Assembly (NCBI GenBank): GCA_963930775.1
Contig: OZ005690.1
Span: 10,132,411 to 10,196,410, forward strand
DNA length: 64,000 bases
From: Cliona cf. orientalis
Lineage: Eukaryota; Porifera; Demospongiae; Clionaida; Clionaidae
Reading direction: 5' to 3'
Below are positions 53 through 38,511 of this stretch, piece after piece. Position numbers and translations under genes: made by a program. Below the pieces are notes generated by a model. That model did no database searches. It was not told the origin of the DNA and saw only the letters and a list, made by a program, of their open reading frames with translations. Within the stretch, counting starts at the first letter, position 1. Each line of letters opens with the position of its first letter.

Positions 53-1089
53 GTTTTCGGTTTTGGTCGAACTCCACTCCAGCTAGCAAAAACCCCAGAA
101 ATAGTTAAACTACTGAAGCCTACAGGTAAGTGAGTTGAGATAAGGCCATGCGCTTTGTATAATACAGATACCTTGATTCTGTCTAGCTACCACCCATATC
201 CCTTCTAAGAATCAATAGGTGCCCATTATTCATGAAGGATGTGAAGCTGTATGGCTGTATTATGATTGTTAGATAACCACCTGCATAGTCTAGTCAGAAA
301 TTAAGAAAATCATGGCCTAAATAGATAAAGAGCTATAATAATGTTATTATAATATTTACTCATTTCCTCCCACACCTCAGAGAGTGCAAAATACAAAACA
401 GCTCTTTATGGGATTATAGACATAGATATTATTATAAGATACCGGGTATGCAACTGATCCAATGTCTTGTAGTCAGGCTTTAAATACGTATTAGGTATAC
501 CATCTGACACTGATACACACACTTACACATGAACATACAATAATATACAGCTGATCAATGTACACAGTGCAGCAGAAAATTTACTCTTTACAGAAGACAG
601 GTCTGTTCATGTGCCACATGATGCTTCTGCATGGCATGGATTATACACATGTATGTAATTTTTCTTTAGCATAACTGCCATAGATGTTTGGCTCCAGTGT
701 GTGATAACTGCTCCAAACACAAGTTACCCATTTATGACCTCTTATCCAAGCCAGAGAAAGTTTGTGATCGCTGCTTTGATGACCTTACAGCTCAACGCAA
801 AAATGAAAGTAAGGCTTTGCTTGAAGTAACTAAAGTTATTCCTAATTAATTTAAGGTATTTTTTAACTACTCAGGTCGACCACTGTCAGCAGATGAGCTG
901 AGAATACTCAACATCGTACTAGTGGAGTACGTGGACAAACTGAACAACATTGGTTTATATTTTGAAGCAGCCATTGCTGACCAACCAGCCACAGACCAGC
1001 CAGTGGTCACTAAGAAAAGGGTGGTGGAGTGCTTGCAACAGATTGGTCAGCGAGAGTTAGCTGGAATTTTGATCAAGAATCAAGGTTAG
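53..1089 (+). CDS. 3' end of an ankyrin/FYVE-like zinc-finger gene (partial)
   Basis: Three exon candidates are visible. The first (53-125, after AG, before GTAAGT) reads like the end of an ankyrin repeat (GRTPLQLAKTPEIVKLL). The second (670-808) has Cys pairs HNCHRC, CDNC and VCDRC, matching the second half of a FYVE zinc finger. The third (875-1089) gives a helical tail of about 71 residues ending NQG and a TAG stop. Exons two and three join in phase. The first ends in phase 1 while the second begins in phase 0, so an exon is missing or misplaced between 126 and 669. I did not find the first Cys pair of a FYVE domain. FYVE domains bind phosphatidylinositol 3-phosphate on endosomes; whether this half finger still does is unknown. 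The gene runs off the left edge. I am fairly sure it is coding and less sure of the family. Confidence 0.55.
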
Positions 1090-1548
1090 ATTTTGCAAGC
1101 AATAATTATAGTTTCACCACTTCTTATGTAAGTGCATAGCTAATTTTAAAACGGTCGCAACTTTCGAACACACAGTCTGACCATGATCATGGAAGGTAGT
1201 GCCAGTAGTATTTGAGCTGCAAAAAGGCCTATGTGGCTGGGTAGATACATTGCTGACTAATTTTTGCTCAAATACACCAGCCAAAATAAAAGTTTACATT
1301 TCGGCAGCTATACAATTGCCATCATCAGTGCAATAGACAGATACAGTGGCAAGGTGAACTTACATAGGCAAGGAATCCCCTAAAATAGAACAAATCATGC
1401 ATTGATATCATAATTCACTCCACTTGTCAATGAAAGAAGAATAAACATCACTATTAAAGTCCGAGAATGCTGTTGTACTCTGTAGACAGAGATCCAACAT
1501 CCCTTTTAAGAGTGTTTCCGATTGTTCTGATGAAGATGGCTTCCTGGG
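1090..1548. other. Non-coding stretch next to a retroelement remnant
   Basis: No credible exon is seen here. It lies on the 3' side of the minus-strand GIY-YIG remnant and could be decayed sequence of the same element. Confidence 0.3.
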
Positions 1549-1863
1549 TTAGCCTGGTGTGAGTATCAGAAGGATTAGATAAAACTGTAACCACTGGGTG
1601 TTCAACCAGACATGTTTGGCCAATGCAGAGGGGTTAAAATCCGCCAGTCTGATTACCCTCTTGTGTTCTTCTAACAGTGTACAAGAGATTTGGCCAATAT
1701 AAGATGCTGAGTAATGGCCACAGGGAATCTTATGCACAACACTACTAGACTTCTGTAGGTCAGGAATGGGGTCCTTTGGTCTCGATGAGAGATTCTTCAG
1801 TATCCGGAACAGCTTAAAATGTACCCTTACTTTCAGGGGAGCTAGTATGCTAGTTGGATACAT
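1549..1863 (-). mobile_element. GIY-YIG endonuclease remnant, Penelope-like retroelement
   Basis: The 104-residue minus-strand frame carries the consensus of the GIY-YIG domain of Penelope-like retroelements: a KDPIPDLQKSSSVVHKIPCG lead, then SASYIGQI, then LLEEHKRVIRLADFNPSALAKHVW. The Cys of the usual C-x2-C pair next to IPCG is partly lost (GHYS) and the frame ends just after HVW. No reverse transcriptase is found upstream on the minus strand (to the right), so this is a 3' fragment of a dead copy. The family call rests on the motif string; the exact element class is inference. Confidence 0.6.
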
Positions 1864-2348
1864 TTATGCTGAGCTCTTTATTGCTGGTAGCTACATTCCT
1901 CAATGTTCAGCCGTGCATACTGACTTGCATCAAGTATTACAAGTGCCTATCAACTTGTACGTAGCTAGCACTGCTCATGCAGACCCCACCTCGACTGATT
2001 TACAAGTTATAGCTATAGGAATGTACTGCTAGTCCTATCCTCATACAGATCCCACCTCATGGATAAAAAAAAATCTGGTGACAGTGGGCAAAAAGCTTGG
2101 TCAAGTCAACAACCATAGAGTATAATATTATTGTATGTGCTAATCAGATCACAGTTTAAGTCCAATTATGCTAACCACAGGAATGTAAAAGCATAATTGC
2201 TATAATACACAAATATGAATCACCCACGTCACCTTACTGAAATGGGTGTTATGTAATTACTAAACACAGACTGCAAGTTTGCAACTGTATCAACTGCAGC
2301 TGGTGGCTACTATGTTGGCCTGGGAAGGATACACCCGCTGTACTCATA
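1864..2348. other. Unassigned non-coding DNA
   Basis: No coding or structural signal stands out. An 88-codon frame (1766-2032) overlaps the GIY-YIG remnant on the opposite strand and has no recognisable content. Confidence 0.3.
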
Positions 2349-2760
2349 TACCGTAGAATCCCGCGATTACGCCCCCCCTCGCGCATAAGCCCCCCTGCAT
2401 TTTAGCTCAAGTTCCTGCATAGGTACTTTTGTCTCGCGTATAAGCCCCCCCTCCCTGACTGTAAAATGGAGCCCATAATTTGGCATAAATCAACAAAAAC
2501 AGTAGCTACAGCTAGCAAACTAGCTATTTGTGTCATATTATGCCTTACTTTGTCGTTTTTCTCGAGTTTTGCCCACCAAACAGCCAGAGAAAGTACAGAG
2601 ATCGCGCGCCCACGTGGCATTCGACGGTCGGTAATGGTCGTCACACAGAAATGTAAGGATCCCGCGTATAAGCTCCCTCCCCACTTTTGGCCAATCCTAG
2701 CATGCACAAAGGGGGGGGGGGGGGGGGGGGGGGGGGGCGTAATCGCGGGATTCTACGGTA
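2349..2760. mobile_element. TACCGTA-end inverted-repeat element with poly-G tract
   Basis: Terminal inverted repeats start TACCGTAGAATCCCGCGATT and end with the exact complement, including the flanking TA. A run of about 27 G lies against the right repeat. The interior also has CGCGTATAAGC motifs in both halves. There is no transposase, so it is a non-autonomous MITE; the TA ends suggest Tc1/mariner mobilisation (inference). Confidence 0.75.
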
Positions 2761-2857
2761 CATGATCTCAACAAGGTGTTTATTCATTTACTCGCGTATT
2801 ATCTTAGATAATACGCGAGTAAATGAATAAACACCTTGTTGAGATCATGTACCGTAG
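2753..2857. repeat. Near-perfect palindrome beside the TACCGTA element
   Basis: CATGATCTCAACAAGGTGTT and the sequence up to 2804 are repeated in exact reverse complement to 2849. The symmetry continues outward through GGTACATG/CATGTACC and a second TACCGTAGATTCTAC end. The unit looks like an inverted duplication at the right end of the neighbouring element. Confidence 0.8.
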
Positions 2858-3186
2858 ATTCTACATCATCCTCCCAGAATGTGTTTGCTTCAACACTCCT
2901 ATCTAATGTACTCCTGGTCCAGAGGAAGCCCAAGCTATCGAGCAAATAGCCCAAAGTCTCCATACCCTTTTACCTCCTTGAGGGTGGAATCTAAGGATGA
3001 AACTAATATGCTACATGCTTAACTTTAGTTTGACTGACCTTGGAAGTGTTATACCAGAAAAGTGCAGGCAAATGCAGGCATGCCGTGCAATATGAGCTTA
3101 ACGTGATGTCACATAATAAAATGGCTATAATTGTTGCATTCCAGCAGCACAACTCTGCAAGTCATCAGACCCTTTGTTTCCATAAG

Positions 3187-3322
3187 GCAGCGGTGTCACC
3201 AAGGGGGGTGCATGTGGGTTCATTTGCACCCAATCCATGCACCTGTGCACCCATGCATCCTATAGCTACATGTGTAGTACTGTTTACCTATAGCCTGTCA
3301 CAGTATGCATGTTTCATTACAG
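3187..3322 (+). repeat. Dispersed repeat copy A (GGGGGGTGCATGTGGG family)
   Basis: This block resembles 4020-4155 across its length: GGGGGGTGCATGTGGG, CACCCAATCCATGCACCTGT, then TATGCA(T/C)GTTTCA. The copies are in direct orientation and separated by the TACCGTATAGCGG element. Confidence 0.65.
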
Positions 3323-3341
3323 AACAGCAACATGTCGTGTA

Positions 3342-3852
3342 TACCGTATAGCGGGAAATTTTCGAGGGTAGCAATTTTCGCGGATGTGGGATTTTGAACC
3401 TTTTCGCGTTTTAATTTTCGAGGATAGGGTCAGCCTGAGACAAAGCCACACCCCCAATTGGATGCAATAAAAACCACGCCAGATAGCTAGTGTTAAACAC
3501 GAGCTATGTCTGAACTACAAAGCTGTGTTGTGGAGGCGATGATCCGTGGCTACCACGAGTATCAAAGCATTTGGGAGGCTGAAGTTGGAGAAAATCTGAC
3601 GTGTATCCGAGAACCCGGCAATGTCCGTGACCCCTATGTTCCTCGTTCAAGGTGCTGGTTAACAGATGCAGAGAAGCAAAACGCATCACGAGACGGCGTT
3701 TACTTGCACGTGACGTTGCTGACGTAAACAGCGCTACCTTGCTATAGCTATGTGTCGTAAGTTTAATTTCGAGGTATAAAATTTCGCGGATTCACCCTGA
3801 TCCGCGAAAACAGCGAAAATTAATACCCTCGAAAATTTCCCGCTATACGGTA
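3342..3852. mobile_element. TACCGTATAGCGGG inverted-repeat element carrying a gene fragment
   Basis: Left end TACCGTATAGCGGGAAATTT and right end AAATTTCCCGCTATACGGTA are exact complements and the repeat continues inward (TTCGAGG, TTTTCGCGGA). Total length is 511 bp with TA at both ends. It has no transposase. The middle holds a short coding-like frame, described separately. It is a TA-flanked MITE of the same broad group as 2349-2760, 15335-15545 and 62541-62931. Confidence 0.8.
3506..3727 (+). pseudogene. Captured HIRAN-like gene fragment inside a MITE
   Basis: The 73-residue frame includes IRGYHEYQSIWEAEVGENLT, then CIREPGNVRDPYVPRSRC. The pattern GYHxYxxIWxxxVGExLxCxREPxNxxDPYAVAV...GHVPR is familiar from HIRAN-like domains in invertebrate mobile-element and repeat proteins. 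Here the stretch between DPY and VPR is missing, so the core strand region is deleted. It lies wholly between the inverted repeats at 3342 and 3852, so it was probably captured by the element. Family assignment is from memory of the motif and moderately secure; function is unlikely. Confidence 0.45.
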
Positions 3853-3949
3853 TATCACTATGTGCATAAACTGTCTACATGGAATAGTACCTAGCTATGT
3901 TATTATACTATTAATAGTATTACAATGTCATGTACATGTATACTACCCG

Positions 3950-4386
3950 CTAACTTCATGCATACACCTGTGCAGTTACTTTTAATAACTTGCACCCAGT
4001 TAAACAACTGCCTAGAGATACCACTGCCAGTGGTGTTGCCAGGGGGGTGCATGTGGGCTCATCTGCACCCAATCCATGCACCTGTGTACCCATCCTATGC
4101 ATGTGTAGTTTTGTTGTTTACCTGTAGCCCATCACAGTATGCACGTTTCACTACACTGTCACAGCCAGTGATGTAACATATCACTATAATATACAAAATG
4201 AATAGACTATAGTATTATTATGTTGACTGTCTACATGGATTAGATTGTTACACTGTATTTGATAGTACTATATACATCACTTTGTATACGAGAGTGCACT
4301 TCTGGTAGCTTTATGCATCCACCTGTGCAGTTACTTTAATAACTTGCACCCAGTTAAACAGCTACCTAGAGACACCACTGGCACCG
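3950..4386 (+). repeat. Direct repeat copies of a low-copy family
   Basis: Two segments, about 3955-4027 and 4312-4386, share CACCTGTGCAGTTACTTT, TAACTTGCACCCAGTTAAAC and TAGAGA(T/C)ACCACTG. Between them 4020-4155 repeats 3187-3322. This points to a duplicated block of about 370 bp with drift. Confidence 0.6.
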
Positions 4387-4474
4387 ACTGCTGTTTTTTT
4401 TGTTGCTAGTGCCTTCTTGTTCTATTTATGCTCGAACAAACCATTGAATTAAACACTGAATGATGATATTCAGA

Positions 4475-4605
4475 GGTGTTGGAAGATGGTTTGGTAAAGG
4501 GGGCTCTATAGATCTATTGAGCCTAGCTATGTAGCTAACTATCAGAAAACATAGGGGGGCACCAGCCCCCAGAGCCCCCATGGTTCCTACCCCTATGATA
4601 TTGAT
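4475..4605. mobile_element. Decayed G/C-homopolymer MITE fragment
   Basis: GGGGGGCACCAGCCCCCAGA and CCCCCATGGTTCCTACCCCT resemble the interior and end of the element at 15910-16252 (GGGGGCAGAGCCCCCATTGT; CGTAGGAACCGGGG). Only one end is recognisable. Confidence 0.4.
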
Positions 4606-5706
4606 AATTTTATAATTGTCTTTGCAGTCATTCAGATAATTAGAGTGAGTACTGTAAGACCATGTGCTTAGGGAGTGTGCGCTACACATTAATCGAGCTG
4701 TACTCAACAACTAGTGTCTGCAATAATTAGATCAATCAGATGAATATAATGTAGCTAGCTTATGTCTGGTCTCTCTGCTATGTATGAGCATTGATTAATC
4801 CTCGCCGCAAAGCACAGGCGGAGGGATGCTGCAATCGTTTGGCGATTTTTGTCGGTCGGTCGCAACCCTCTTTTGCTAAATGGTAAGGGTCGTCATAGAG
4901 AAAGTACGCATTGTAGGCATAAAGGAAGAGTGGTCATGTTAAGTCATGCCCAGTGGAGTAGTAGTGGCAACGTGTTTACATGGCACCTACCTCAACTACA
5001 TCATTCTGTGCTTTGCTGGTCAGTTGTCAGTGTGTAAACAGGCTGTGGCTCTCAAGTGCATTATTCAGTTGAAGCATGTCACCGTGAGAGGCTTTTAGTT
5101 TATATAGTGGCATAGCCAATTGCCTTCCCCCAACTCATAGATCACTGACTCTAGTACCAGAACCCTGTTTAGGTGCAGGGTATGTAGTCAATAGTACCAG
5201 TACCCTGTTCAGGTGTAAGGAAATAATCCGAATGTACCTTGCTATAATATTATGCATGCATGTAGCGGTGAGGGTTCTGCACTCCTGTGCATTGATTATT
5301 GCATGTGATAGAAAACGAGCATTCAATGAACGTACACATCTGCATTGGCACTGCCTTTGTTGGTATGACGGTGACCAAGCTTTTTTTATCGATATTATTA
5401 CTAATAATCTCTTATACAGGCAAGGAAGGGCCTCTGTTGAGAGGAGGGAGAGCCTGGTACACACCATTCACGCATTGCATGATGCTAGTTGGCTATAGCA
5501 ATCATAATAATAATATTATAACAATAAATTAAATTAAAATTATGAACACATCAAGTAAAAATTGGGCCTTAGGAGCACTTCGATCGATACATGAAATGGC
5601 ATGAACTGCAATAAAATCCATATGCTCCCCCATATGAAAAGCCTGAAGACTTTGAAATGTGAATTTTGTACATTCTCTGAATCACACTTTGCACCTATTT
5701 CCACCT

Positions 5707-5740
<34 letters not shown>

Positions 5741-6392
5741 GTGAAATTGGCCGAGTATACCTAACTTGTAAGGCCCGATTTTACTTGATGCATTATATGT
5801 ACAGTATAGCGCTCAATAAAAGTTAATGTTCCGTTTCCTATTCTACGATGGTTGAATGGTGAAAAAATGAGAACAAAACGGTAGCTGAACAGTACGGACA
5901 GAAAGGTAAATTTAATAGTTGAGATAGTTCTTAGTAAGCACATACTAAGATAGCCATAGTAGCCCGCTGCACTGGATTTTACAGTTGCTAGGCGGCTCTA
6001 CTCCGCCACTTGCTGGAAACCAAGCCGATAGCTTTTTAGGCTCAAGGCAAATGCTTGAACTACACACGCGAAACATACCTGACAATCGATAAGACGCTAA
6101 GATACAGCTTTCTTTCGACATCTGCTACATTAATGAGAGGGTTGACTGTGCTTCTCCATCGCTCATGGCTTCATGAAAGCTCATTTCTTCCATGTGGCAT
6201 CAAGAACAGTCAATTATTGTAGTAGCTATAGTCATACCTATCAAATAAGCATTTATACTAACGTAAAAACGATGGATACGCGTGCGTGTGTGTGTAGTCC
6301 CCGTGGAATGATGTGAAATGGAGACGTTCTCACCTCAAAATGATCGTGCAACAGAACTGAATGTTAAATTGCAACTGTATCTGCACTAACAG
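4606..6392. other. Intergenic region upstream of the ROCO gene
   Basis: It contains a short tandem duplication around 5152-5220 (AGTACCAG..ACCCTGTT.AGGTG twice) and a run of about 31 G at 5709-5739. No exon is convincing. The 5' end of the ROCO gene must lie here or further upstream. An ATG at 6318 opens 15 codons before a possible GT, but that intron would be only 30 nt and the phases disagree, so I do not use it. Confidence 0.4.
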
Positions 6393-9300
6393 GCATCAAA
6401 GAGCTTCAAGATCACGTGTATAAAAACATCTACGAAAGTGCATTAAGAAGTGAAAAGGCTGAAATCCGCCTTCAAGTATTCAAGATGATATTGAGTGGAG
6501 TACCACGATCGGGAAAGACCACCTTCTGGAAGCGATTGGCGATGAAGGATTTTGTGCCAAGTGAGACATCAACAAGCACTGGAGCAGCAGAGTCACACTT
6601 TCTCTCAGCCCACATGAGCACGGAAATGCTGCTTGATTTGCACTTGTACAGCGAAACAGATACGAAAGATCTCACAACAGAAGCATTGACGATATATAAG
6701 CACATTTTAGAAGCAGCTTCAACACAGACTGATTCAAGTCAAAGTGACAGTGTGGTGCCCTCAGAATCCTCTACTACTTCCCCTGAGGAAGAATCAACGA
6801 GTGTACCTTCAAAATCAGTCAGCGAGGAAAATGATCAATCACAAGCAACCAATACTCAGACACCTTTTCCACACAGTACTGATCCTGATACTAATCTTCA
6901 ATCTGAAGCCAGCACTGCAAGTCAGATTTCAACAGAAACGAGTGAAAATGAACAAAGAGTACCAGTAAAGTTTGCATATCGTGAAATTATTGATGAAGAA
7001 ATATTGGCAGCCCAGAAGCAAGAAATTGAACAAATTTCCAAAGAAATTGATGAATATTTCAATGAATTAACTGGTCTCCTACGAAAAGGCGAAAAAGTAC
7101 CAACCAATATCCCACTTATCAAGAAAATTTGTCACTTGATTGACACTGGAGGTCAAAGGGCATTCTTGGAACTGCTTCCTACAGTGACAGTGGGCAAAGC
7201 ACTCTACCTTCTCTTCTTTTCATACAAGCACTTCGACAGCAAAATTCACGAGACAGTTCAACAGCAAGGTGCCTCTATAGAGGTACACACTGGTACATTC
7301 TACGAGCAGATGGACATAGTAATGCAGTCGCTAATCTGTGTATCGAGCACTTCCTCCGTATCGAAAGATAACGTAGCCCTACTTGTTGGTACACATGTTG
7401 ATAAAGTTGAATCTCAACATGTGGATGCTGTTAATAAAATCGTTAGTAAGAAAGTGGAACCGTTCCTAAAAAGTGGCCTTGTGTTTGCAGATGAACAAAG
7501 AGATAAGATGGTGCTGGAAGTAAGCATTGAGAAAACCACGAGGTGTAGTAATCGGCCCGAGGATTATCGAAAAGTGATTTTGGATATTGCCGAAAATAAG
7601 CTCTCTTGTCCAGAATCTGAAAAGCTGCCACCATCATGGTATATGTTCTCAATTGTTTTGCGCAGGATGAAAATTGCCGGTCATTCAGTGCTTCGATACA
7701 GCCATTGCCAGCAGATCGCTAGAAACTTGCACATTAAAGAAACACAGCTCCAGAGCTTGCTATCTCGTCTCCATAAGATCCTCGGAATTGTGATGTATTT
7801 CCCAGAAATACGTGAACTTGAGGACTTAGTCATCTGTGATCCCTCAATCGTGTACAGAGGTATATCCGAGCTAATTTTCGATTCATTCACCAAGAGCAGT
7901 ACAATGCGATCCTTGCAGTTGAGAAACTGGGGAATATTCACATATCGGGAATTAAAGGAACACTGTAGATCAAAATCGATAAAAAAAGGATGCCAGCTTC
8001 TGATCGATCAGTTGATAATTATACTTCAACATCTTGGAATCATTGCTCCAGTTCAATTCAGTGAGCCAGACGATTCTTCAGCTGAGACTAACGATGAGGA
8101 CCATTCATCGCAAAGCATTGATGCAGAATTCATAGTTATTGCTGTTCTTAATGATGCTCGACAAGAGGAGCTCCAACTGCAGCTACGAAATGGAGAGGCC
8201 TGCTCAATAATCCCTCTCAGACTGTACTTCAAGTGTGGATTTTCTCCAATGGGCGGATTCTGCTATCTCTTCACAAGATTGATATCCGATCGAAAATGGA
8301 AACTTCCACTTGAAAAGGAAGAGATGATGACCGAAAATAAAGTTTACTGGAGAAACAAAGCCACTTTTATCGTTGAAGCAGATCAGAAAAAATATTTTGT
8401 GACCCTAGTGTCAACTAAAGTATACTATGAAATTCACATTGTACACACTCATTCCAAAGAACCATTCCAGCTTGGAACGGATGGTCGCAACATTTGCAGA
8501 AAAGTTTGGAACGATATCGAAACAGTTATTTCAAACTCTCTAAATGCACCTTTGAAAGAGTACACAGTTGCTTGTCAATGCACCTTGCACGGAAAAGAAG
8601 AATTGGAACATGTGATGAAATTTGAAAGCAAACCACATGATGAGATTGAAATTAAAGCCACTTGTCTGCTGGATAAAAACCGACCACATTCACTTACTGT
8701 GGACACTTCGGAACAATCTGTAATAGTATGGTTCAAGGTAAGTATTGAAAAAAATCTGTAATGTGTGCTTTACTTGTCCTTGGTAGATTGCTTAATTTTA
8801 CCTTGTTGCCTTCATAGGAACCACATGATCATCGTGTAAAGGACTTGGGCAGTGTCGTTGAACTATCTACAGACCATTTGTTCATGATTACCACCAGCAG
8901 TGGGCAGCTTGAGTATCAGTGGTCAAGAATTATTAATGATGAAGAGGAGAAAATTGAGGACGGGGAATGTTTCAAAAACAGTGACTCAAAAACTATGGTA
9001 ATTGGTGGTTTTGAAGGCAAGTATACTGGAACCTACCGGTGTGTCGTTTCAACATCGAATCGTCCTATTGTATCAATGTCAGCTGAAGTGGAACTAGATC
9101 TACCAGGTACGTACAAACACAGTATTGTAATAGTCTCCAGAACAATAATAATTATATTAGCTACTTTTTGCAGATTTTCCTGAAGATTTTAGCACTGAAA
9201 TGAGCAATAAGGAGTTTTTACTCTTTATCAATGCTAATGGTATTCGTTATAAAGTTTGCAAGAGATTGAAAGGTACAAAGTGATGAATTATTACACTATA

Positions 9301-12300
9301 GGTAATATCATTGCTACAGGAGTGTAGTTAATCCTAAGTTTTATTGGTAGCAGGTGAGAGAAATCAAGACTTCCCTCTCTACACTTCCCTCACCTGCTTA
9401 CAATGCTAGGCTTACAATAATTATTACCCAATCAATTTCCTAACTTTTATTTCGATTGCAGAACAAAAAATCACAGCTAAGAAATTTAATCTGAGCTCTT
9501 TTGCGTCTTGGGCACCACATCTAAACCTGATACCCATGGAGATGAGTGAACTACAAGATTTATTAAGTAAGTAGTACTTTTTTACCACATAATAATATCT
9601 ACTTTATGCTCCTCAGTTGTATATCCAGGCAGGTGTTCATTAGGAAATCTCATGGGTGGGGAGGGGGTGTATATCAATTATAATAAGAAGGGTAATATAA
9701 ATTATTAATATTTATTTTGAAGTTTTATTAACAGCTAATATTCCAGAGGTGAATCTATTTTATGTAGCACTATTATAATATTAACTATTCAATACCATAT
9801 AATTTTCACTGATTTACCACAATTTGATAATTGTCTTTAATATGCATACATTTTGAATCAGCCCAAATCAGTCCTGCATCAGAAGTACAAGAAGTACAGG
9901 TAAACATTTCAATGTTGATAGCATAATAATTATTACTGTACATGGATGCACACACTCAAAGGCTGAAATGAAGTGCCCTGTGTGTCGAGTCTTGCAAGTC
10001 GATCCCTGCACACTTCAGTGCGGACACACTATTTGTCAACTGTGCTTGGCTCGTATGTACAAAAATTTTGACAAATTCTGTCCTATGTGCAAAGAGCCAT
10101 GGAGTATGTTTCCTGCAATCAGCTATGACTACAGGTATAATGATGAGAGCTCATCATGATTACTATTATAGTGTCACTGCATAATCTACTTCGGATTTTA
10201 GAGCCAACATTGAGAGTTTTTATGGTCATCAAGTTAGTCAGCTGAGAATGCAATATACTCAAGAGGACAAAGAAGTTATCGAAGAATTTTTGAAAGCAAA
10301 GAGGAGTTGTAGTCCGAAATCAGAAACTCGTGTGGGAAGAGAAGGTAGCAGCAAATACTCATTCACTCTCCTCCATACCCCCCACCACCAAGGAACTCTC
10401 TCACTCTCTCTGTCTTTTCACACTCTTTCACTTGCTTATATTTAACATCATTCATGCAGAAGGCCCACTGTTGACATTCTCAAAGCACCTGGACCATGAG
10501 CAGTTGTCTCGATGGTTATCTCACCATCCAAGATTTATGCAAGTTGATTATAGACATGATATTGACAAATTGAAAGGTATGAATATTTCAATAAAGCCAT
10601 ACATATTAAATTTTATTCATTAATTTTTACCACCGCATGTAGACGCCAAAATAAGTGGTGATATATTTCTGAGCCTGAACAAAGACTCACTGGAGCACTA
10701 TGGATTGTCTACTGAATTTCAAACACCACTGATGAAAATTATTGAGGAAGTGGTATGTAGCTAACCCTGCATACCTATTTTGAGGTTTCATTCAAACATT
10801 ATGATGTACTGTAGAAAATGCACCCACAATCTCCTGAAAAAAAGACAGAATTACAGCTATACCAGCAAAAGTCTTTAGAAAGTGTGCTTACCACAGCTGC
10901 TGATTCCTCTGGCACAGGCATTCAGTCTACAGAACAAAGTACTAAAATTATTATTAGTATGTGATACTGTAATTATTATTATGCTCACTGTCATGTACTA
11001 CAGGTGAATCCCAGAGTGAAGAAATTGATACTGCACAATCAACGTCAGCTGAAGCAACTGACCTTGGTACATACTAATTATTATTATGTAATGTAGCTAA
11101 CTACTAAAATTTTAAGCTGCTTTGACATGATCACATCATCACATGTTGTAGTATACATGCCTAACTACAATTAAATTTTGTATACACCTTTATGCAGCTG
11201 TATGGAAGTTACCTGGTGTAGAAGAGTGTGATGAAATGAGTGTTGTTGTACACTCTTCTCAAGGTCAGCTTGTCGAGTGGAATGGCTTGAAGCTTCATAT
11301 CCATGCAGGCAGCTTACCAGAAGGCTTGCAGCAATGTACCATTTTCATTAAAGCTTCTCTAGCTGGGGACTATGAGATCCCTGAGAACACTAGTCTAGTC
11401 AGTGGCGTCTTTTGGCTGCGCTGCGAGCCACAGTGCACCTTCATTAAGCCTATCACAGTTGATATCCAGCATTGCAGTACTAAACGGGATCTCTCAAAGC
11501 TTAAAATAGTACGAGCATATTGTAATCAAACTTCCCTCCCCTACAAGTTTAAGCAACTAAATGGAGGTAGATTTGATGCCCACACATCTTATGGAGTCAT
11601 AGAAGTGACTCATTTCTCTGGATTCGGAGTTGCTGAAGAAAAACCAGATTCAGAGAGGATGTACTACAACCAGCTTATCTATTACAGTAATCACAGTCAA
11701 CAGAGACATGATATTCACATTATCTATACTTGGAATACCGATGCACATATAAATGTAAGTTATTTGTTCGATTATCCGTTCCTTATAGTGAATTTGCTCA
11801 ATCGTATAATATCTAGTATGTCAGTGCAAAGTATCCTGAGGAGCGAGGTTACAGTGCCGGCTGTTATCAGGTTGTCGAGTTAGAAGGAGCTGTGATCCAA
11901 GTTGATCTTGAAAAAAGAAAGTGGACTGAAGTGATGGATGGTCAGTGGAAAATATATCCAATAAAACCATTGGTCAGTTAGCAACATTCGTGACATGGAG
12001 AGTATTTTACCTGATTCTTGATAATCATTTTCATTATAGTTGACAAAAGCTGAGCTTAATGACTTTAAACTGGGCAGAGCGATACCCAACTGTGTACTTG
12101 AGGCACGCCCGCTCCGTGAAGATTGCGATCAACTTTTACATGAAATTACCTTGATTGGAATTAAATCACCGTATAATGAGCTGACACTTAGACTCTATGA
12201 TAGTATGCCATCAAGACAAGGTAAATTCAATCACATGCATCGTGCTTTGCTAATTACTAGATTTCCAAGAGGCATGTTATGCTAAATAGCTCCTTTATTC

Positions 12301-13454
12301 AAACTTAATCTATACCAGTCTAGTAATTTTAATGACAATAACTTTTTGGACAGATTATCCCAGTGGTGCTACTGTACAGCAGCCACAATCCCCACCTACA
12401 GTTCAGACGCGATTGGATGAACACTTGCAATCATTAATATTTTCCAAGGATATGAGCAATGAGCAACTAGCACTATGGTTAAGAAACCACCCCAACCTAA
12501 GTGGGACAAATTATGAAGAAGATATCAGCAAATTGAGCGGTACATTGTTTGACACAATGCTAATCACTATGCTCATTAATATTATTGCCTTGTTTAGATG
12601 CCAGGATTAATGGCCATGTATTTCTGAGCCTGAATGAAAGCCAAATAACTCAACTAGGAATATCATTAGGATTCAAATTTGCCATCATGAATATCATAGA
12701 AGGCATGGTAAGTTCATGGGAAAGTCTCTGTAGTACATGTAGCATTATTTCAACTTGGTCCTGTTATGTAGCTACAGAGAAGCAGCCATCAACCTCCCAG
12801 TAGTGAGAGACTACCACTACAGCAACAGTCTCCAAGAAGCAGTGTGGCTACCCCCAGAACTACACAGCATCAGCTGAGCTCTTCTACTGCTGGACAACAA
12901 ATAAAACTTGGTAGGTAGTCACATCATGCATACACTCATACACACATACAATCATTAATTTTGATGCTGGCCATTGCTCATATTATTACTATACACGGCA
13001 GCACCTTAAGCTTTTCAGTATGATAGTTAACGACTGCTGTTGATGAATCAGATGTGCATACATGCATTCATACTTGTATGCGCCAATACACACATTGCTG
13101 ACCTGAATATTGTATTTGTACATAGATGAATTGCCGACATTAGACGAGTTGCTGATACTCAAGTACACCGACGAAGGAACGAGATACAAACTTCGAATTG
13201 TCGAAGAAGCTAGCCATAAATGGAAGGACATTGCCAATTTAATTTGCGGTGATGTTAACGTAACGATCAAATTAGAAGACAAATTCCGTGGTGATTCCAA
13301 CGAGTGTCTCAAACGAACATTCATTGACTACTTCATTAACAAGAAACCACAGGGGTATACTCAAGACTGGAATGGACTAATTGAATTACTGGATGATATC
13401 AATCTCCAAACACTTGCTGAAAAAGTAAAACATGCGCTTTCATGTGCTAGATAA
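6393..13454 (+). CDS. ROCO GTPase fused to Ig, RING, SAM, ZU5, SAM and Death domains
   Basis: I model 18 exons: 6393-8737, 8818-9106, 9174-9272, 9462-9566, 9862-9899, 9962-10134, 10202-10344, 10460-10576, 10643-10752, 10815-10956, 11004-11066, 11198-11754, 11817-11972, 12040-12220, 12354-12539, 12598-12707, 12772-12910, 13126-13454. All introns are GT/AG, all phases agree, and together they give about 1,755 residues. Numbered from codon 6416: P-loop GVPRSGKT (28-35), switch STSTG, DTGGQ (243), THVDK (326), COR domain (about 400-774), Ig-like (YxGTYRC, 775-870), RING (CPVC..CGHTICQLC..CPMC, about 955-1000), SAM (about 1065-1132), ZU5 (about 1210-1340), UPA-like linker (to 1498), second SAM (about 1525-1597), Death domain (about 1645-1750). 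The start is open: exon 1 is preceded by an acceptor, and the first in-frame ATG is 6485. It is probably a cytoplasmic NLR-like signalling protein (inference). The architecture is unlike any I can name. Confidence 0.85.
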
Positions 13455-14204: not shown

Positions 14205-14998
14205 ATCTATCCCTTCTCATCCGTCCTGAATGCCGCTGGCGATGGCTCTCCTCTGTACACTCTCTATTGGAACTTCGACACGGCTGAACGGACGATAACG
14301 TTTGCAGTGAAGGCCAGAACTAATGGATGGGTCGGCTTTGGTATCTCCACGGGCCCCAACGGTGGCATGGTCAACTCTGACATCGTCATTGGGTGGGTGA
14401 AGATGCAAGTTAATTTACAAGTATATAAAGAGCTCAATAATTATTGAGGTAGCTAATCGCGTTATTTGTTATTATTGAGTATAAATTGAGAGTTTGTAGT
14501 AGCTAATATTAGAGTAGGTAGTTCCTGGACCATTGAGCTATACAGTAAGTAGTGCTACCGATATCTTGAAGTAAAGCTTTTGACCTTGTAGAAATCCTAA
14601 GAATATTCTGGCAAATGTATTAATTTGCTTCCATGGAAATCCTTTATTTGCATGCATTACTTTGAGTCCATATCATGATAGGGCATAATAATTAAATATT
14701 ATGGTCCAGTTGCTATTTATTTTATTGTGGTGTGCCTACATGTATAATTTATTCTATCTATTATACCATACATACCACAGGATCGCTATGCGGTTACCCA
14801 ATCCCGCCCACCAATAATTGATCCTCAACAGGACTGGAATCTGATCAGAGGAGAGAATGAGGATGGTTTCACTACTTTAGAGTTCTGGAGAAAATGGGTG
14901 ACATGCGATGATAACGACAGAGATATAGAAGTGAGTGAAGTTTGAGCATTAAATTTTATTGAGATAGCTGAAATGATAGGGAGTCGTAAAGGAAGAGA

Positions 14999-17472: not shown

Positions 17473-20400
17473 TCAATTGTTCTCTTGAAGTCTTCGGGTC
17501 ATAGCGCGGGTCACAGGCCCGGTCGTTCTCGGCTCAGGCGGAGCACGAGAAGTAGAATTGTTAGCAGCATGCTTTGACTTTCGTTTGCGGGTCTTACGAC
17601 GACCAGTCCAACTAGTGTCGGGAATCTCTGGATAACAGTGACGTAGTCTGTCGAGAGCCACAAAGATACTTGGGTCATCAACACTATCCACAAGTTTCAC
17701 TTCGGCATTAGTGGGTGTTAGAGTCACAATACGGTAGGGACCGTGGTAGGGTCTAGCCAGTTTTCTCTCTTTACCAGTTACATCGGTAGGCATGTATACC
17801 ATCACTCTTTCCCCGACTTTGTAAGCAGGCTCTTTTGCATGCATATCGTAAAACTTTTTCTGTCTCACTTGTGCTTTCTTGATCTGCTCCCTAGCATCTT
17901 CATGAGCCTTCACCAAACAAGTAACAAGCTCCGACTTGTAATCATCCAGATCAACAGTGTACTCAGGTCGAGGGAGCTCCATGGTGCTAGTAGTAGGTAA
18001 ACGTGGGTCTCTGCCGTAAACAAGAAAGAATGGAGATTCTCTCGTAGACTCCTGAATCGTGGAACGGTATGCAAATAGGAGCATCGGCAGCTGCTTGTCC
18101 CACTCAACACCAACATCGACACTTTTCGCTATCATGTTTGTGATGGTAGAGTTGAATTTCTCTACAAGGCCATCCGTTTGCGGGTGGTATCCGGATGTAT
18201 TGACTTTCTTTATACCGAGAAGTGAGCATATTTCGAGGATTAGATCGGATAGAAAATTCGCGCCACGATCTGACAGAAGCTCCTCAGGCACGCCGTGTCT
18301 GCATACAATGTTCTCAACAAGAAGTCGTGCGATAGTTTCTGCTCGCTGATCTGGGACCGGATAGGCCTCTACCCATTTAGTCAGATAGTCTAAGAACACA
18401 ACAAGGTATTTATTCCCGCTAGAAGTGAGAGGCAGCTGTAAAATGTCAACTCCAACTCGGTGAAACGGTCCTTTGACGGGAATTGGCTGAAGCGGTGGTC
18501 GAATACCACGTCCTGGTCCTTTGCGTGTGGCACAATTCAGGCAACCTCGACAAAACTTTCTGACATCTGATCGCATGCCATGCCACCAGTAGGACCGACG
18601 GAGCCGATCGTACACTTTACGTTCGGAGAAATGTCCGGAAAACACACAAGAGTGAGCCTCCTTAAGCAGGTTACTCCTTAGCTCACAAGGAACGACTACA
18701 CACCATCGGCTGGAATCAGCAACATCTTCTCTATGCAACACTCCGTCAATCAATTCCATTCTCTTACTTTCCAAAACAATTCTTTTAGCAACACTGTCAT
18801 TCTCGGGTAGAACCTTCTGCTCAAGGTAAGTGATGTACACAGCCAGCTCTGGATCTTTCAGCTGCAGCTCACGAATCTCAGTAAGGCTCTCCTTCAGCTT
18901 GATATCTTGATCTCCACTAGTGCAGTCACTGTTTACACTGGAATCATCATTAGCTACTTCTGCATCTTCTCCAGGGCAGTCATTGTCAACACTGGAATCG
19001 GCTGATGTATCAGCGCTACCACCGGATACATTGGCGGGGTCACTAGACTTGTTAGGAGATGCAACGGACTGTACAACACCAACTGAACACATGTTGTCGT
19101 TGCTATACTCTAACTCTTCACAATTGTTCACAGAGTCAACACTTTTCGCTTCGTCAGTCACAGGATTGCGCGACAGTGCATCTGCATTTGCATTTTGTTT
19201 ACCGGAGCGATGCTTCAATGTTAGATCCATTTCTTGCACTGTCATGGCCCAACGTGCTAGCTTTCCAGAAGGGCGGGGGGTATTGAGAAGAGAGAGACAT
19301 GCTGAGTGATCAGTATACACAATTGTGTGGTGGCCTAAAAGATACGGGCGGAAATACCGAACAGCCCATACGAGCCCAAGCGTCTCCAATTCAGAAATGC
19401 AATCATTCTGTTCGTGGGAGTTAAGAGACCTAGAGGCGTACGCTATAGGATGTATAAGCCCGTCTTCTTGTCGTTGAGACAACACGGCGCCAAGGCCCAG
19501 GCCACTAGCATCCGTCTCTAAAATGAATTCTTTGTCAGAACCGAAATGAGGATATGCTAGAACAGGAGCTGTGACTAAGAGATTTTTCAGCTTGCTGAAA
19601 GCTTCATCGCACTGTGGGGTCCAATTGAATGACACGTCTTTCTTTGTAAGAGCATGCAGAGGCGCAGCTACCTTAGCAAATCCAGGTACGAATCTGCGGT
19701 AGTACGACGCCAGGCCAATAAACTGGCGGAGGGTGGTTACATCGTGAGGTACAGGGAAACACTTCACTTTGTCTGTTTTGGCGGGGTCAGGACGGATACC
19801 CTCTGCAGAGATCACATGACCCAAGTAGGGGACCTGGTCGCGGAGGAGGAGGCACTTTTTCGGCTTAAGACGCAAGCCAGCATCACGCAGTCTACCAAAC
19901 ACTTCTTTCATGTGTTGGAGATGCTCTTCGAGAGTGCGGGAAGCAATGAGTATGTCATCTAGATAGACGAAACAGCTATTCCACTCCAAACCAGAGAGCA
20001 CAGCTTGCATGGCGCGCTGAAATGTGGCAGGCGCATTGCACAAGCCAAACGGCATTCGTGTAAATTCGAACAAGCCGTGATGCGTGGTAAAGGCTGACTT
20101 TGCGCAGGCGTCTTCATCGAGTTCGACTTGCCAATAGCCTGATGCCAGGTCTAGCGACGAGAAGTATTTTGCTTCTCCAAGAGTGTCGAGAATGTCTTCT
20201 ACGCGTGGAAGCTGATAGACATCTTTCTTCGTGATAGAATTCAACTTTCTGAAGTCTACGCAAAAACGCAGACTGCCATCTTTTTTTGGTACAAGCACTA
20301 TGGGGCTAGCCCAGGGACTTCTGGAAGGTCTTACTATCCCTTGTGCTTGCATTTGAGATACCATTTGTTCAATCTTTTCGCGATAAATCACGGGAGTACG

Positions 20401-22974
20401 ATAGGGACGCTGTTTAATGGGAGTGTGGTTTTCCGTAGGGATGGTATGACGAACCAGATTAGTACAGCCCAATTCTGAATCATCCAAAGCGAATATATCA
20501 GTGGATTCAGTAAGTACTTCTTTCAACTTGTCTAACTCGATTGGGCTAAGTTTATCGACAGGCAGCTCTAAAGACTGCAATAACTGCTGAAAACGCTCAG
20601 GAGTATTGGATAATGCTTTGACTGCAGCACACCTGCTGTCATCAAGATGCTCATTTTTCTCTGGGGTATCAACTTTCACTGTCTCAGGTAGATCACATGA
20701 CCTAACAACTCCCAACTGCATTCCCTTTTTCAATTTAACAGGCAAACCCTGGTAATTCTCAACAGGGATCAAAGCCATTCCATCAATATTCAAAGTGATC
20801 AAAGATTCATGGGAACAGAGACCGTGCGATTCGATAACGTCACATGCAGGTTCAAATAAGCAACACTTAACTTCACTAGTATTACCATCAGCTTGACCTT
20901 TAGATTGGCAAGGATTACTGTCAACACGACATTTAATAAACCGTCCCTTTTGACTCGGAATTGTGGTGGCTTGCACCAAACACACACGTGAAACAGTAGG
21001 CTCAGATTGGGGGGATGTAGCTAAAGCTTCCCCATTAGCTCTGGTAATAGATACACCAAGATATGGAATAATATTTGTACCAAGTAGACATGGTTGTACA
21101 CTATCAGGTTGGACAAACAAAGTAGCACATACCGTTTTTCCATCAGCCTCCACTGTGGCGTCAAACTGAGCAGTCACAACGATCTCGGGTCCTTTGTCTC
21201 CGTCTTTCCCGAAGAGAGTAGTGCAGGGCTTTCTTAAAGTGGGTACGGGGCGTCCTTGGCGTCCTAAGTGTCTGCCAATGGCGTGGAGAACTTCGCGAGA
21301 GACGATGGAGGACTGGGCACCCGTATCAAACATGGCTCGCACGGGCACTCCTTCGATCAGGATGTCGAGGTACAGAGTAGGTCCCACTGCTCCCTTTGTG
21401 TCCTCTACTGCACTCACTGCTGAGGTAGTGCTCGCCTCGATCAGCAGCTGCTGTTCACGATCCACATGCCTCTTGGCTAAGACAGCCTTCAACTGCTCAT
21501 CAGAAAAATCATCCAGTTTAGGTACTTGTCCAACAACGGCGGTACGAGAAGTATCTGAACGACCAGGAGCTTCCGGAGGTGGTCTGGACTCCCGTCGCGG
21601 CTGATTATCTCGGGATCCTCCCCTGAAACGTCCTTTGCGGTGGGTACGGTGTCGCTCGGTCTGGGAATTGGAGGAGGTAGTCGGAGGAAGGGACTCATTT
21701 CCTGAATCCTGACGTTGTGTAGCTGGGTCCTTAGGCGGTTGGCTGGTTTGCTCATTCTTCTTACTGGACCTGTGTGCGTCACTTTTAGAGGCAGCAGATG
21801 CCGCATACTGCTTCTCATGCTGCTCGAGAGTCCTGGCTCGATCGTACAGTTCGCGAAAAGTCTCCTGCGGTTTTGGGGCGCCAAGTTTGCGCTGCCATTT
21901 GACGTGGAGGGCCTGGAAGAATCGGCCTTTGAGCAAACGGTCAAACTCCTTTCCTTTGGAGGAGGGAAACGCCTTTCGTCCTAGACGCTGCAGGTCAATC
22001 CCCAGCTGTTCTACCGTCTCGCTTCCTTGTGTCCTGTGGTGAAATTCCAAACCACGTAACTCCTCAATATCTCCTGTTCGGAACCACTTCTTAAGAGATT
22101 GGGTCGCTTTGTCATAGTTGCTACGCTCGTCTTCAGGGAGAGAACGAAACACTTCACGGGCTGTTTTGTCCAACAGCAACTTCAGTTGGTGCAACTTTTG
22201 CTCCGCAGTCCAGCCAGCAAGTGCTGACCGCTCCTCAAAGCGCTCTAGCCAGCGATCGAAACCTTCATCTTCAGCTTGCTCCTTCTCCCCAGTATATAAC
22301 AGCAAGGGAGGGAGATGATGAACCGCTGTAGCCAACGCCTGAGCTGCCATTGCTTGTGTCTGGGCCTGGAGTAGCTTGGTCATAGTCTGCATCAAAGTGG
22401 GAGGTTCAGTTGATCCTCCATCAGCATCTGAGTCGGACTGGGTTGGGTCATCTTGATGTTCTAGAGCCTTTCGAGATGTCTCCTTGTTAGTCTCGTTGTT
22501 AGCTCCCGTCCCATCATCTTCCACTTCACTTTCTCTTTCACTACCATCAGAGAGTTCACTCACTTCAAGCTCATGGAATTCACTTGGCGGGTATAGGTCG
22601 TCAGAGCGGCTTGTACTTCTGTGCGCATGCGTGGAACTTCCGGAAGCTGAGGGAGCGCGCGGGGCCGGCGTCGACAGTCTCGTAGCCTCCAGCGCTGAAA
22701 TGCGCTCCTCGAAGCGCTGCTGCTCCACCCTAAATCGCTCCTTCACGTCCTGCATCCAATCATCCATCACCTTTCGCTCACGTTCCATTGCCCGTTGATG
22801 CTCACCGCGTAGTTCTTCCAATGCTCGAAACTTTTCCACCTCAGCACGCAACCTCGAACTCTCCGTCTCTCTCGCTAGCTGTTCCTCCAACGCCTGAGAT
22901 CGCTGCTCAGCTTCACGTTGTACTTCGTCAGCTTCACGAGTAGCTTGCTCCACTTGGCTACGGAGTCTCTCCAT
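17473..22974 (-). CDS. Gag-Pol polyprotein of the Ty3/gypsy element
   Basis: One frame of 1,833 codons gives, in order: charged coiled coil (1-95), retrotransposon Gag core (about 230-400), an Arg-rich segment in place of a CCHC knuckle, aspartic protease (DTGA near 547), reverse transcriptase (YLDD near 1005), RNase H (TDAS..), integrase with an HHCC zinc motif near 1443, a DDE core near 1507-1620, and a GPY/F-like module (RPYHGPYRIV) before a basic tail. This order (RT-RNase H-integrase) is Ty3/gypsy. Gag and Pol share one frame without a stop. All catalytic motifs that I can see are present. The true Gag start is probably further upstream in another frame (23150), so the N-terminus of this copy is uncertain. 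Confidence 0.95.
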   Translation of the reverse strand: MERLRSQVEQATREADEVQREAEQRSQALEEQLARETESSRLRAEVEKFRALEELRGEHQRAMERERKVMDDWMQDVKERFRVEQQRFEERISALEATRLSTPAPRAPSASGSSTHAHRSTSRSDDLYPPSEFHELEVSELSDGSERESEVEDDGTGANNETNKETSRKALEHQDDPTQSDSDADGGSTEPPTLMQTMTKLLQAQTQAMAAQALATAVHHLPPLLLYTGEKEQAEDEGFDRWLERFEERSALAGWTAEQKLHQLKLLLDKTAREVFRSLPEDERSNYDKATQSLKKWFRTGDIEELRGLEFHHRTQGSETVEQLGIDLQRLGRKAFPSSKGKEFDRLLKGRFFQALHVKWQRKLGAPKPQETFRELYDRARTLEQHEKQYAASAASKSDAHRSSKKNEQTSQPPKDPATQRQDSGNESLPPTTSSNSQTERHRTHRKGRFRGGSRDNQPRRESRPPPEAPGRSDTSRTAVVGQVPKLDDFSDEQLKAVLAKRHVDREQQLLIEASTTSAVSAVEDTKGAVGPTLYLDILIEGVPVRAMFDTGAQSSIVSREVLHAIGRHLGRQGRPVPTLRKPCTTLFGKDGDKGPEIVVTAQFDATVEADGKTVCATLFVQPDSVQPCLLGTNIIPYLGVSITRANGEALATSPQSEPTVSRVCLVQATTIPSQKGRFIKCRVDSNPCQSKGQADGNTSEVKCCLFEPACDVIESHGLCSHESLITLNIDGMALIPVENYQGLPVKLKKGMQLGVVRSCDLPETVKVDTPEKNEHLDDSRCAAVKALSNTPERFQQLLQSLELPVDKLSPIELDKLKEVLTESTDIFALDDSELGCTNLVRHTIPTENHTPIKQRPYRTPVIYREKIEQMVSQMQAQGIVRPSRSPWASPIVLVPKKDGSLRFCVDFRKLNSITKKDVYQLPRVEDILDTLGEAKYFSSLDLASGYWQVELDEDACAKSAFTTHHGLFEFTRMPFGLCNAPATFQRAMQAVLSGLEWNSCFVYLDDILIASRTLEEHLQHMKEVFGRLRDAGLRLKPKKCLLLRDQVPYLGHVISAEGIRPDPAKTDKVKCFPVPHDVTTLRQFIGLASYYRRFVPGFAKVAAPLHALTKKDVSFNWTPQCDEAFSKLKNLLVTAPVLAYPHFGSDKEFILETDASGLGLGAVLSQRQEDGLIHPIAYASRSLNSHEQNDCISELETLGLVWAVRYFRPYLLGHHTIVYTDHSACLSLLNTPRPSGKLARWAMTVQEMDLTLKHRSGKQNANADALSRNPVTDEAKSVDSVNNCEELEYSNDNMCSVGVVQSVASPNKSSDPANVSGGSADTSADSSVDNDCPGEDAEVANDDSSVNSDCTSGDQDIKLKESLTEIRELQLKDPELAVYITYLEQKVLPENDSVAKRIVLESKRMELIDGVLHREDVADSSRWCVVVPCELRSNLLKEAHSCVFSGHFSERKVYDRLRRSYWWHGMRSDVRKFCRGCLNCATRKGPGRGIRPPLQPIPVKGPFHRVGVDILQLPLTSSGNKYLVVFLDYLTKWVEAYPVPDQRAETIARLLVENIVCRHGVPEELLSDRGANFLSDLILEICSLLGIKKVNTSGYHPQTDGLVEKFNSTITNMIAKSVDVGVEWDKQLPMLLFAYRSTIQESTRESPFFLVYGRDPRLPTTSTMELPRPEYTVDLDDYKSELVTCLVKAHEDAREQIKKAQVRQKKFYDMHAKEPAYKVGERVMVYMPTDVTGKERKLARPYHGPYRIVTLTPTNAEVKLVDSVDDPSIFVALDRLRHCYPEIPDTSWTGRRKTRKRKSKHAANNSTSRAPPEPRTTGPVTRAMTRRLQENN

Positions 22975-23150
22975 CTCGACGTCTTTTCGCTCGAGCGAGC
23001 GTTTAGCTCGGCTTCCAAGTGGGCCAGTCTTTCTTCAAGTTGCTGGTCCATGGTAGAATCACGAACTAATCCAGAGCGTAACGATTTTCTGGCAACAACG
23101 TCTCGATTACCACTCAACTCTTGTAAGGACTTTAGTTCTCTATTCGACAT
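22975..23150 (-). CDS. N-terminal Gag segment in a shifted frame
   Basis: A Met codon at 23150 opens MSNRELKSLQELSGNRD and then a coiled coil (EERLAHLEAELNARSSEK) that fits the start of the main frame. The two frames overlap near 22980 around an AAAA run. Either one base is missing or added in this copy, or a ribosomal shift joins them. I do not join them here. Confidence 0.6.
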
Positions 23151-25760: not shown

Positions 25761-26714
25761 ATAAATTACATTAAAGTTTTTTTATGAACCAGTATTATAG
25801 CCTGCATTGCTTCCATAAGTTTTTAAGACTTTTTTGTCAGTTTTATTTAATAATATTATTACTTAATTAAGGAGCAGTAGATCATTACTTTTTAGTTTTT
25901 TTATGTAGTTGCATTAATTCTTAGTCTGTTCTTCTTACATCATCTATAAGTCTATGACACTGTATTGTTTTGCTGTTGATTTTCTATCCCTGACTACCCT
26001 TTTCGACAATGGCTGAGTAATAACTATTGTTCTCGTTCTGATCATAAAATTGCCGATAAATTAATAGCTAATAGTAAATTTTACAGGTTCGATGCAATAG
26101 AGAAGTAAGTGACGGACACAATACAATGCAAGATGCCTTAAGATTGCATCATTATTATATATTGTGCATTATTGTGAACACCAGTCCAGGATGGAAGGAC
26201 TCCCCACAGATCAAAATAATTAATGATTCTCTTGGCATGCAGGATAGAATGATACCACTGTGATTATGCAAAGGAGTCATTTTATCCCAGATCGATAGAG
26301 GAATTAAATCACTTAATTTCTAGGATCAAGTGACTGGAGATCAGTTTGTTCTATAGGAAGGGGGGATTCTCCTCTCATATTATATAGGTGAGGTGTAAAA
26401 CCAGAAGTGTCCAAAGAATCATATATATATAATAATAATATTATGGTCTCCTATGACACAGAGCTGAATATATATATGTAGGTATAGCTAATGGCTAGCT
26501 TAGAAGCCATTTAGTGACAGCTGTTTATAATGTTTAGAAGACACAATAATTAGCAAATTAAGTCTGTGTTTTCCATCAGTAACTAGCTAGTTGGCCACAC
26601 AATAAGATTTGGGTCACCACAACTTCGAGGAAATCATATTATAATGAGCTCCTTAGCTACAAGTTGACCGCCAGTTATCCTTTAGAAAGAAGCGCACGAG
26701 TTTAAAATTAGAAA
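25761..26714. other. Intergenic between the monooxygenase and beta-helix genes
   Basis: AT-rich, with runs of AATAATAT. No exon, tRNA or clear repeat is seen. The promoter of the following gene should lie at its right end; no TATA box is distinctive. Confidence 0.35.
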
Positions 26715-38440: not shown

Positions 38441-38511
38441 TGTACTGGCCCATTGTAGGTTTAGATATCGCCTTGATTTATCCGAATCACAATAGCCAAA
38501 TTAAGCACAAC

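Follow-up and report, generated by a model that had tools for sequence, protein, structure and literature searches.

Roco proteins have been grouped into LRR, LRR-kinase and DAPK1-type members (PMC6337361). Self-cleavage occurs at SF|S in CARD8 and NLRP1, and the motif reads HFS in PIDD and Nup98; cleavage requires the Ser, with the Phe also important, and in UNC5b a Leu replaces the Phe (PMC3210808). The gene described here lies in a 64,000-nucleotide stretch of the 216.8-Mb genome of the sponge Cliona cf. orientalis (C2:10132411-10196410; contig OZ005690.1 of assembly GCA_963930775.1), which is referred to as the window. Comparison with its many relatives strongly supports a single gene uniting a Roc-COR GTPase, a RING finger and a Death domain. 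It probably encodes one large protein, probably intracellular, with the domain order ANK-FYVE-x-ROC-COR-Ig-RING-SAM-ZU5-(UPA)-SAM-Death. An earlier sequence-only reading had proposed this order from ROCO to Death, and that part holds, with weak support for SAM and with UPA placed by position; it missed ANK-FYVE, and the order differs between copies. It also overlooked the mosaic multigene family to which the gene belongs and a possible self-cleavage site in ZU5.

Gene model and domain evidence

Between positions 6393 and 13454 of the plus strand, the model rebuilt from the sequence comprises 18 exons encoding 1759 residues and ends in a TAA stop codon at 13452-13454. All 18 acceptors are AG, all 17 donors are GT, every phase is compatible, as had been claimed, and the frame is free of stops and frameshifts throughout. 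The first of these exons, 6393-8737, had been called the first exon. It opens at a phase-1 acceptor, however, with an in-frame stop upstream; the gene therefore begins earlier, with ankyrin, FYVE and one further exon.

In the window copy, the profile matches for Roc, COR-A, ZU5, SAM and Ig all fall below the curated cut-offs. The identity of Roc, COR-A, ZU5 and Ig is established through relatives; that of SAM is not. The three Roc motifs G1, G3 and G4 (GVPRSGKTTF, which is the P-loop, DTGGQ and THVDK) are found in exon 6393-8737 as reported before, the Roc profile matches 54 of 60 family members at E up to 0.01, and COR follows directly, the Roc-COR pair being confirmed by profiles and fold. 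The RING cysteines begin at 9974, inside exon 9962-10134, again in agreement with the earlier reading. The zinc ligands form a C3HC4 set that scores 25 bits with zf-C3HC4 (Pfam cut-off 21); by these ligands the RING is of the E3-ligase type, and ubiquitin transfer is predicted for it. For the Ig domain, support comes from the paralogue L047, where I-set matches above the cut-off (3e-07).

The ZU5-like exon at 11198-11754 and the Death exon at 13126-13454 lie where they had been placed, each identified through relatives. The ZU5 profile matches all 58 aligned relatives (E values up to 0.1, the lowest 1.7e-06), while the window copy alone scores 18.4 bits (cut-off 21) and the fold gives a weak structural match. 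The Death alignment comprises the window copy, four family members and ten distant exons picked from the genome list of Death matches. Of the proposed ZU5-UPA pair, ZU5 thus stands and the UPA part is placed by position: it may occupy the exons after ZU5, which are conserved in paralogues. Both of the SAM domains that had been suggested can be located, each weakly, with SAM_2 scores below the cut-off. Pfam gave no match to NACHT or LRR in the 1759-residue model or in the 231-residue N-terminal part, and no protein kinase N-terminal to Roc-COR in the exons read, the 5' end lying beyond the model.

Upstream of the ROCO exon, the ankyrin, FYVE and 70-residue exons splice in phase into 6393 across 5.3 kb, and the joined N-terminal part matches Pfam Ank at 5.9e-20 and FYVE at 7.1e-14. 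Paralogues tie these exons to the ROCO gene. In paralogue L014 a block matching window positions 517-1086 sits 657 bp before the ROCO exon, in contrast to the long intron of the window, and its 70-residue exon has a canonical donor (GTATGT) and no in-frame stop, whereas the window copy, if unspliced, would show a stop. The comparison that gave this block used the first 1600 bases of 29 loci and covered plus-strand copies. The 70-residue exon, with 29 matches in the genome, precedes 25 of the 27 closest ROCO exons by no more than 12 kb; FYVE exon 2, read from coordinates, stands before 14 of them. In a search of all loci, FYVE exons adjoined ROCO upstream in L014, L017, L018 and L025, most of the others having too short a flank. 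Ankyrin exons of 52-79% identity precede several copies on C2, as read from the coordinates of the best 150 of 1967 candidates scored. No ankyrin exon is found in the 2.8 kb before the FYVE exons of L014, which speaks against a fixed ankyrin part.

A family of related loci and the exchange of cassettes

Why read these exons as one gene? The ROCO exon has at least 66 matches in the genome, and 27 ROCO exons, the window included, share at least 49% identity, some at loci that are broken or reduced. A RING exon follows on the same strand, no more than 3 kb away, at 26 of these 27, a ZU5 exon within 8 kb at 23 (one a short fragment only) and a Death exon within 15 kb at 19 (one at only 35% identity); all four cassettes, counting the 70-residue exon, occur at 14. 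The one-gene reading rests on this retention of RING, ZU5 and Death near related ROCO exons. The 30 distant ROCO exons (28-39% identity) mostly lack all of these cassettes, the exceptions being one with RING and Death and two with Death. These figures come from searches that scored the best 58 of 681 ROCO and 150 of 267 Death candidates. The neighbourhood counts used 57 ROCO entries merged from 66 matches, all 29 matches of the 70-residue exon, 34 of 45 RING matches, 38 ZU5 entries (from 40 of 116 matches) and 46 of 145 Death matches; the remaining RING, ZU5 and Death matches were checked by eye, and none would add a locus. The union of GTPase, RING and Death in one protein, as proposed in the sequence-only reading, is thus backed by a conserved neighbourhood, and the sensor or death-regulator role attached to it there is something we infer. 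In other assemblies, 21 contigs are apparently common to the ROCO and ZU5 match lists (60 and 48 contigs of at least 20 kb, paired by equal size only), which suggests that the two are linked there too.

Eight paralogues were read over 10 kb, and in four of them (L042, L043, L045 and L046) the domains between ROCO and Death are ordered as in the window copy. L042 and L046 have ROCO-Ig-RING-SAM-ZU5-SAM-Death; L043 and L045 are without the first SAM and have two later. L044 keeps the order with extra SAMs, its Death exon falling just outside the 10-kb piece, and L047 has ROCO-Ig-RING-ZU5, with no SAM or Death inside the piece and a Death exon just beyond. An extra Ig and a Death domain, without ZU5 or SAM, are seen in L048, and little beyond ROCO in L049. 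SAM copy number thus varies between paralogues. At the exon boundaries reached by alignment, AG stands at 65 of 69 acceptors and GT or GC at 67 of 68 donors. Most exon comparisons show purifying selection: dN/dS is below 0.6 in 61 of 74, and seven give no usable dS (five saturated, two without synonymous change).

The copies exchange cassettes, with one junction close to the ZU5 exon. Identity to the window is 53% in ROCO, 95% in RING and 79% in ZU5 for the copy at C6:673533; 53%, 57% and 87%, with 90% in Death, at C6:873004; and 87% in ROCO, 65% in RING and 72% in Death at C2:14590679. L042, a 98% copy, matches the window up to about 10.2 kb with 96-99% identity in exons and 98-100% in introns; from there to 11.4 kb the values are 93-97% and 84-93%, and beyond 11.4 kb they are 70-93% and 45-69%. 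L044 likewise drops near 11.4 kb. The best single break falls inside the ZU5 exon, at 11550 in both L042 and L044, about 60 bp upstream of HFS. L045 also shows one (11562), L043 and L047 show little, and the first part of the exon is the more conserved in most pairs. Because part of this signal is ordinary constraint, as the break in L045 shows, the within-exon break alone is weak evidence of mosaicism; the fall in intron identity in L042 is stronger.

ZU5-exon matches number 116 and Death-exon matches at least 145 in the genome, many of them in clusters (on C7 and C11 for ZU5, on C9 for Death) distant from the 27 loci, and both cassettes are widely used. One near-identical copy of the window's ANK-FYVE-70-residue piece, without ROCO, lies at C2:9980210-9982894 on the plus strand. 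A 98% copy of the ROCO-to-Death part, at C2:10049405-10051747 on the minus strand, has no such piece, its upstream exon being absent within 20 kb. With opposite orientations and about 67 kb between them, the two look like one gene split by an inversion.

Table 1. Exons and other features of the ROCO-Death gene, in window coordinates unless a locus is named.
Feature	Position	Strand	Evidence
Ankyrin repeats 1 and 2	L009:8471-8575 and 8634-8732, left of window		in-phase splicing
Ankyrin repeat 3 exon	53-125	+	AG/GTAAGT, phases fit
FYVE exon 1, first Cys pair	551-600	+	joined FYVE profile
FYVE exon 2	670-808	+	Pfam FYVE 8.1e-08 alone
Conserved 70-residue exon, fold unassigned	875-1084	+	phase-1 donor G|GTTAGA
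Long intron with inverted-repeat (MITE-like) insertions	1085-6392	+	inverted repeats 2344-2765, 2749-2861, 3340-3854
ROCO exon: Roc GTPase and COR	6393-8737	+	P-loop, DTGGQ, THVDK; profiles, fold
Ig-like exon	8818-9106	+	profile, below cut-off in window copy
Conserved exon, fold unassigned	9174-9272	+	gene model; kept in paralogues
Conserved exon, fold unassigned	9462-9566	+	gene model; kept in paralogues
Small linker exon	9862-9899	+	gene model
RING (C3HC4) exon	9962-10134	+	Pfam
Conserved exon directly after RING	10202-10344	+	gene model; kept in paralogues
SAM domain 1 (exons 10460-10576, 10643-10752)	10460-10752	+	SAM_2 0.0023, below cut-off
Linker exons (10815-10956, 11004-11066)	10815-11066	+	gene model
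ZU5 exon, with start of following UPA-like part	11198-11754	+	profiles through relatives
HFS motif; possible self-cleavage between F (11614-11616) and S (11617-11619)	11611-11619	+	
Presumed UPA part (exons 11817-11972, 12040-12220)	11817-12220	+	position only; kept in paralogues
SAM domain 2 (exons 12354-12539, 12598-12707)	12354-12707	+	SAM_2 0.001, just below cut-off
Linker exon	12772-12910	+	gene model; kept in paralogues
Death-domain exon with stop codon	13126-13454	+	established through relatives

Several other features lie around the gene. Transposon-like multi-exon frames, judged by eye, precede the ankyrin exons (L009:1-7100), and a DOMON-domain exon lies just downstream of the gene (14205-14393, plus strand). 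An uninterrupted 1853-residue retroelement frame occupies 17473-23034 of the minus strand, with matches to RNase H-like, H2C2 integrase and rve integrase domains at 17476-19500. Long plus-strand frames at 26712-31543 include a tract of D/V/A repeats (about 27.9-28.3 kb), and Pfam matched neither of the two pieces that were scanned. Two facing genes, at 38440-40679 (plus) and 42397-44578 (minus), each have a protein kinase beside Kelch repeats and look like an inverted duplicate pair. Ankyrin-like exons at 54829-56864 (plus), some 46-47% like those of this gene, are possibly the start of another such gene.

Predicted function and alternative explanations

What might such a protein do? We lean modestly towards a sensor or scaffold that is regulated by GTP and acts in innate immunity or cell death, and regard the gene as a strong candidate for a sensor of this kind not yet characterised. 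The ankyrin repeats would bind a trigger or partner, Roc-COR would form a nucleotide-controlled dimer, the RING would add ubiquitin to partners or to the protein's own N-terminal part, and the SAM and Death parts would polymerise and recruit Death-fold partners. Less certainly, ZU5 may break its own chain at HF|S, the UPA-SAM-Death piece staying docked until the N-terminal part is removed. NLRP1 and CARD8 depend on outside triggers for that removal. A further proposal, which we hold to be doubtful, is that here the RING, switched by Roc-COR, ubiquitinates its own N-terminal half, that proteasomal removal up to HF|S frees UPA-SAM-Death to assemble, and that recombination near the ZU5 exon, beside the would-be split, swaps sensor and effector halves between copies.

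The HFS motif at the end of ZU5 supplies the Phe-Ser pair of self-cleaving ZU5/FIIND domains. Among the 120 ZU5 relatives listed, of 276 matches, the Phe is present in 119 and the Ser in 117; the residue before them is Gly in 56, Ser in 46, Arg in 7, Asp in 1 and Asn in 1. The catalytic histidine of CARD8 (H270) and NLRP1 (H1186) lies 27 residues before the Ser by published numbering (PMC8081665). In the aligned relatives no conserved His is found between ZU5-exon residue 93 and the motif; His 36 and His 92 of the exon are conserved and could lie near it in space. The chances that the window copy cleaves itself appear roughly even.

A number of observations weigh against the sensor interpretation or against parts of it. 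At 8 of the 27 loci no Death exon is detected within 15 kb, and at 4 no ZU5 exon within 12 kb. The Death exon of the window has no Pfam Death match, its identity coming from relatives, nor is there a Pfam match to UPA in the presumed exons 11817-12220, and the AlphaFold model of ZU5 is poor (pLDDT 48.4). Six of the 74 exon comparisons, all of short exons, give dN/dS of 0.6-1.13. In ZU5, the position 27 residues before the Ser is Leu, not the catalytic His of CARD8 and NLRP1, and the His that directly precedes F-S in the window copy does so in only 9 of the 120 relatives; for these two reasons self-cleavage is uncertain for the family.

Among the alternatives, the one with the most to be said for it, a possible though distinctly less probable reading, takes the protein for an adaptor with E3 activity that works constitutively at the membrane or cytoskeleton, not for an inducible sensor: ANK and FYVE would place it on endosomes, ZU5 and Death would be structural as in ankyrins, and the RING would turn over cargo. 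Large clusters whose members exchange cassettes and differ in their numbers of SAM and Ig domains are unusual for a housekeeping adaptor, however, and F-S at the place of self-cleavage is almost invariant. Moreover, the usual mark of a PI3P-binding FYVE domain is WxxD before the first Cys pair, and the joined FYVE exons have no Trp there. Much less probable is a window copy that is silent or decaying, with an architecture that says little about a working protein. Its upstream intron is filled with repeats, 2 of the 27 ROCO exons contain in-frame stops, and broken copies exist, such as the one at C2:10049405 and the ANK-FYVE piece that stands alone; but the intact frame of its own 18 exons and a ROCO dN/dS of 0.16 against its 98% copy speak against decay.

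A shade more improbable still is that two or more adjoining genes (ANK-FYVE; ROCO; RING-SAM-ZU5-Death) have been joined wrongly. In its favour, no listed ROCO exon lies in the 12 kb upstream of five RING exons with 58% identity or more, nor in the 20 kb downstream of four copies of the 70-residue exon; the donor at position 1084 of the window (GTTAGA) is weak, and ZU5 and Death exons occur at many other places. Set against this are the near-constant position of the RING beside related ROCO exons, splice phases that fit throughout, and the close-set upstream exon of L014 with its sound donor and open frame.

Comparison with known systems

For the candidate sensor, the closest parallels lie in three groups of proteins. 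With PIDD, NLRP1 and CARD8 it has in common a ZU5 followed by a Death-fold domain and the F-S pair, with HFS as in PIDD; it differs in its ANK-FYVE-ROCO-Ig-RING sensor part, the intervening SAM, a UPA that is presumed, and a catalytic His of NLRP1 and CARD8 that is not conserved. UNC5 and the ankyrin ZU5-UPA-Death proteins likewise have ZU5 and then Death, the match in ZU5 fold being weak; they are not known to carry ROCO or RING. DAPK1 also has ankyrin repeats before Roc. Compared with it, the sponge gene shows no kinase in the part read, adds FYVE, Ig, RING, SAM and ZU5, and belongs to a multigene mosaic family. DAPK1, of Roco group 3, resembles it in having Death after the Roc-COR tandem and in that no LRR is found (PMC6337361).

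Other lineages offer partial likenesses. The ROCO candidate immune receptors of brown algae share an expanded family, exon shuffling and a proposed immune role, but they are LRR-ROC-COR only, and it is LRR exons that are shuffled, not RING, ZU5 or Death cassettes (PMC11378527). The sea-anemone NG3 is a lineage-specific ROCO protein with Death, attributed to domain shuffling; it has kinase, Death, TIR, Roc/COR and SH3, and the available text names no ANK, FYVE, Ig, RING, SAM or ZU5 in it (PMC5094078). Among sponges, the NLR repertoire of Dysidea avara includes NACHT-ZU5 genes, and COR appears among the domains in the figure of NLR architectures; these proteins are NACHT-based, however, and the order seen here is not named in the portion available (PMC12909245). 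Nor is it mentioned in the accessible part of a survey of Death and TRADD-N proteins (PMC8195603). The sequence-only reading had stated that no protein of its order was described, and none with the present order appeared among the open-access papers listed by our searches, in some of them the best 10-15 papers, which did not extend to subscription papers or annotated animal proteomes; the order given in that reading was incomplete and varies between copies.

Coupling of ROCO to Death is known from a single human protein, DAPK1, and is met here without a detected kinase, with RING and ZU5 in between, in an expanded family that trades modules. This makes ROCO a candidate switch for diversified animal receptors, beside NACHT and NB-ARC. 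Should ZU5 really break, one chain would contain the break, the effector and the ligase of an NLRP1-like mechanism. Exchanging modules close to where the protein is presumed to split would diversify such receptors in a new way.

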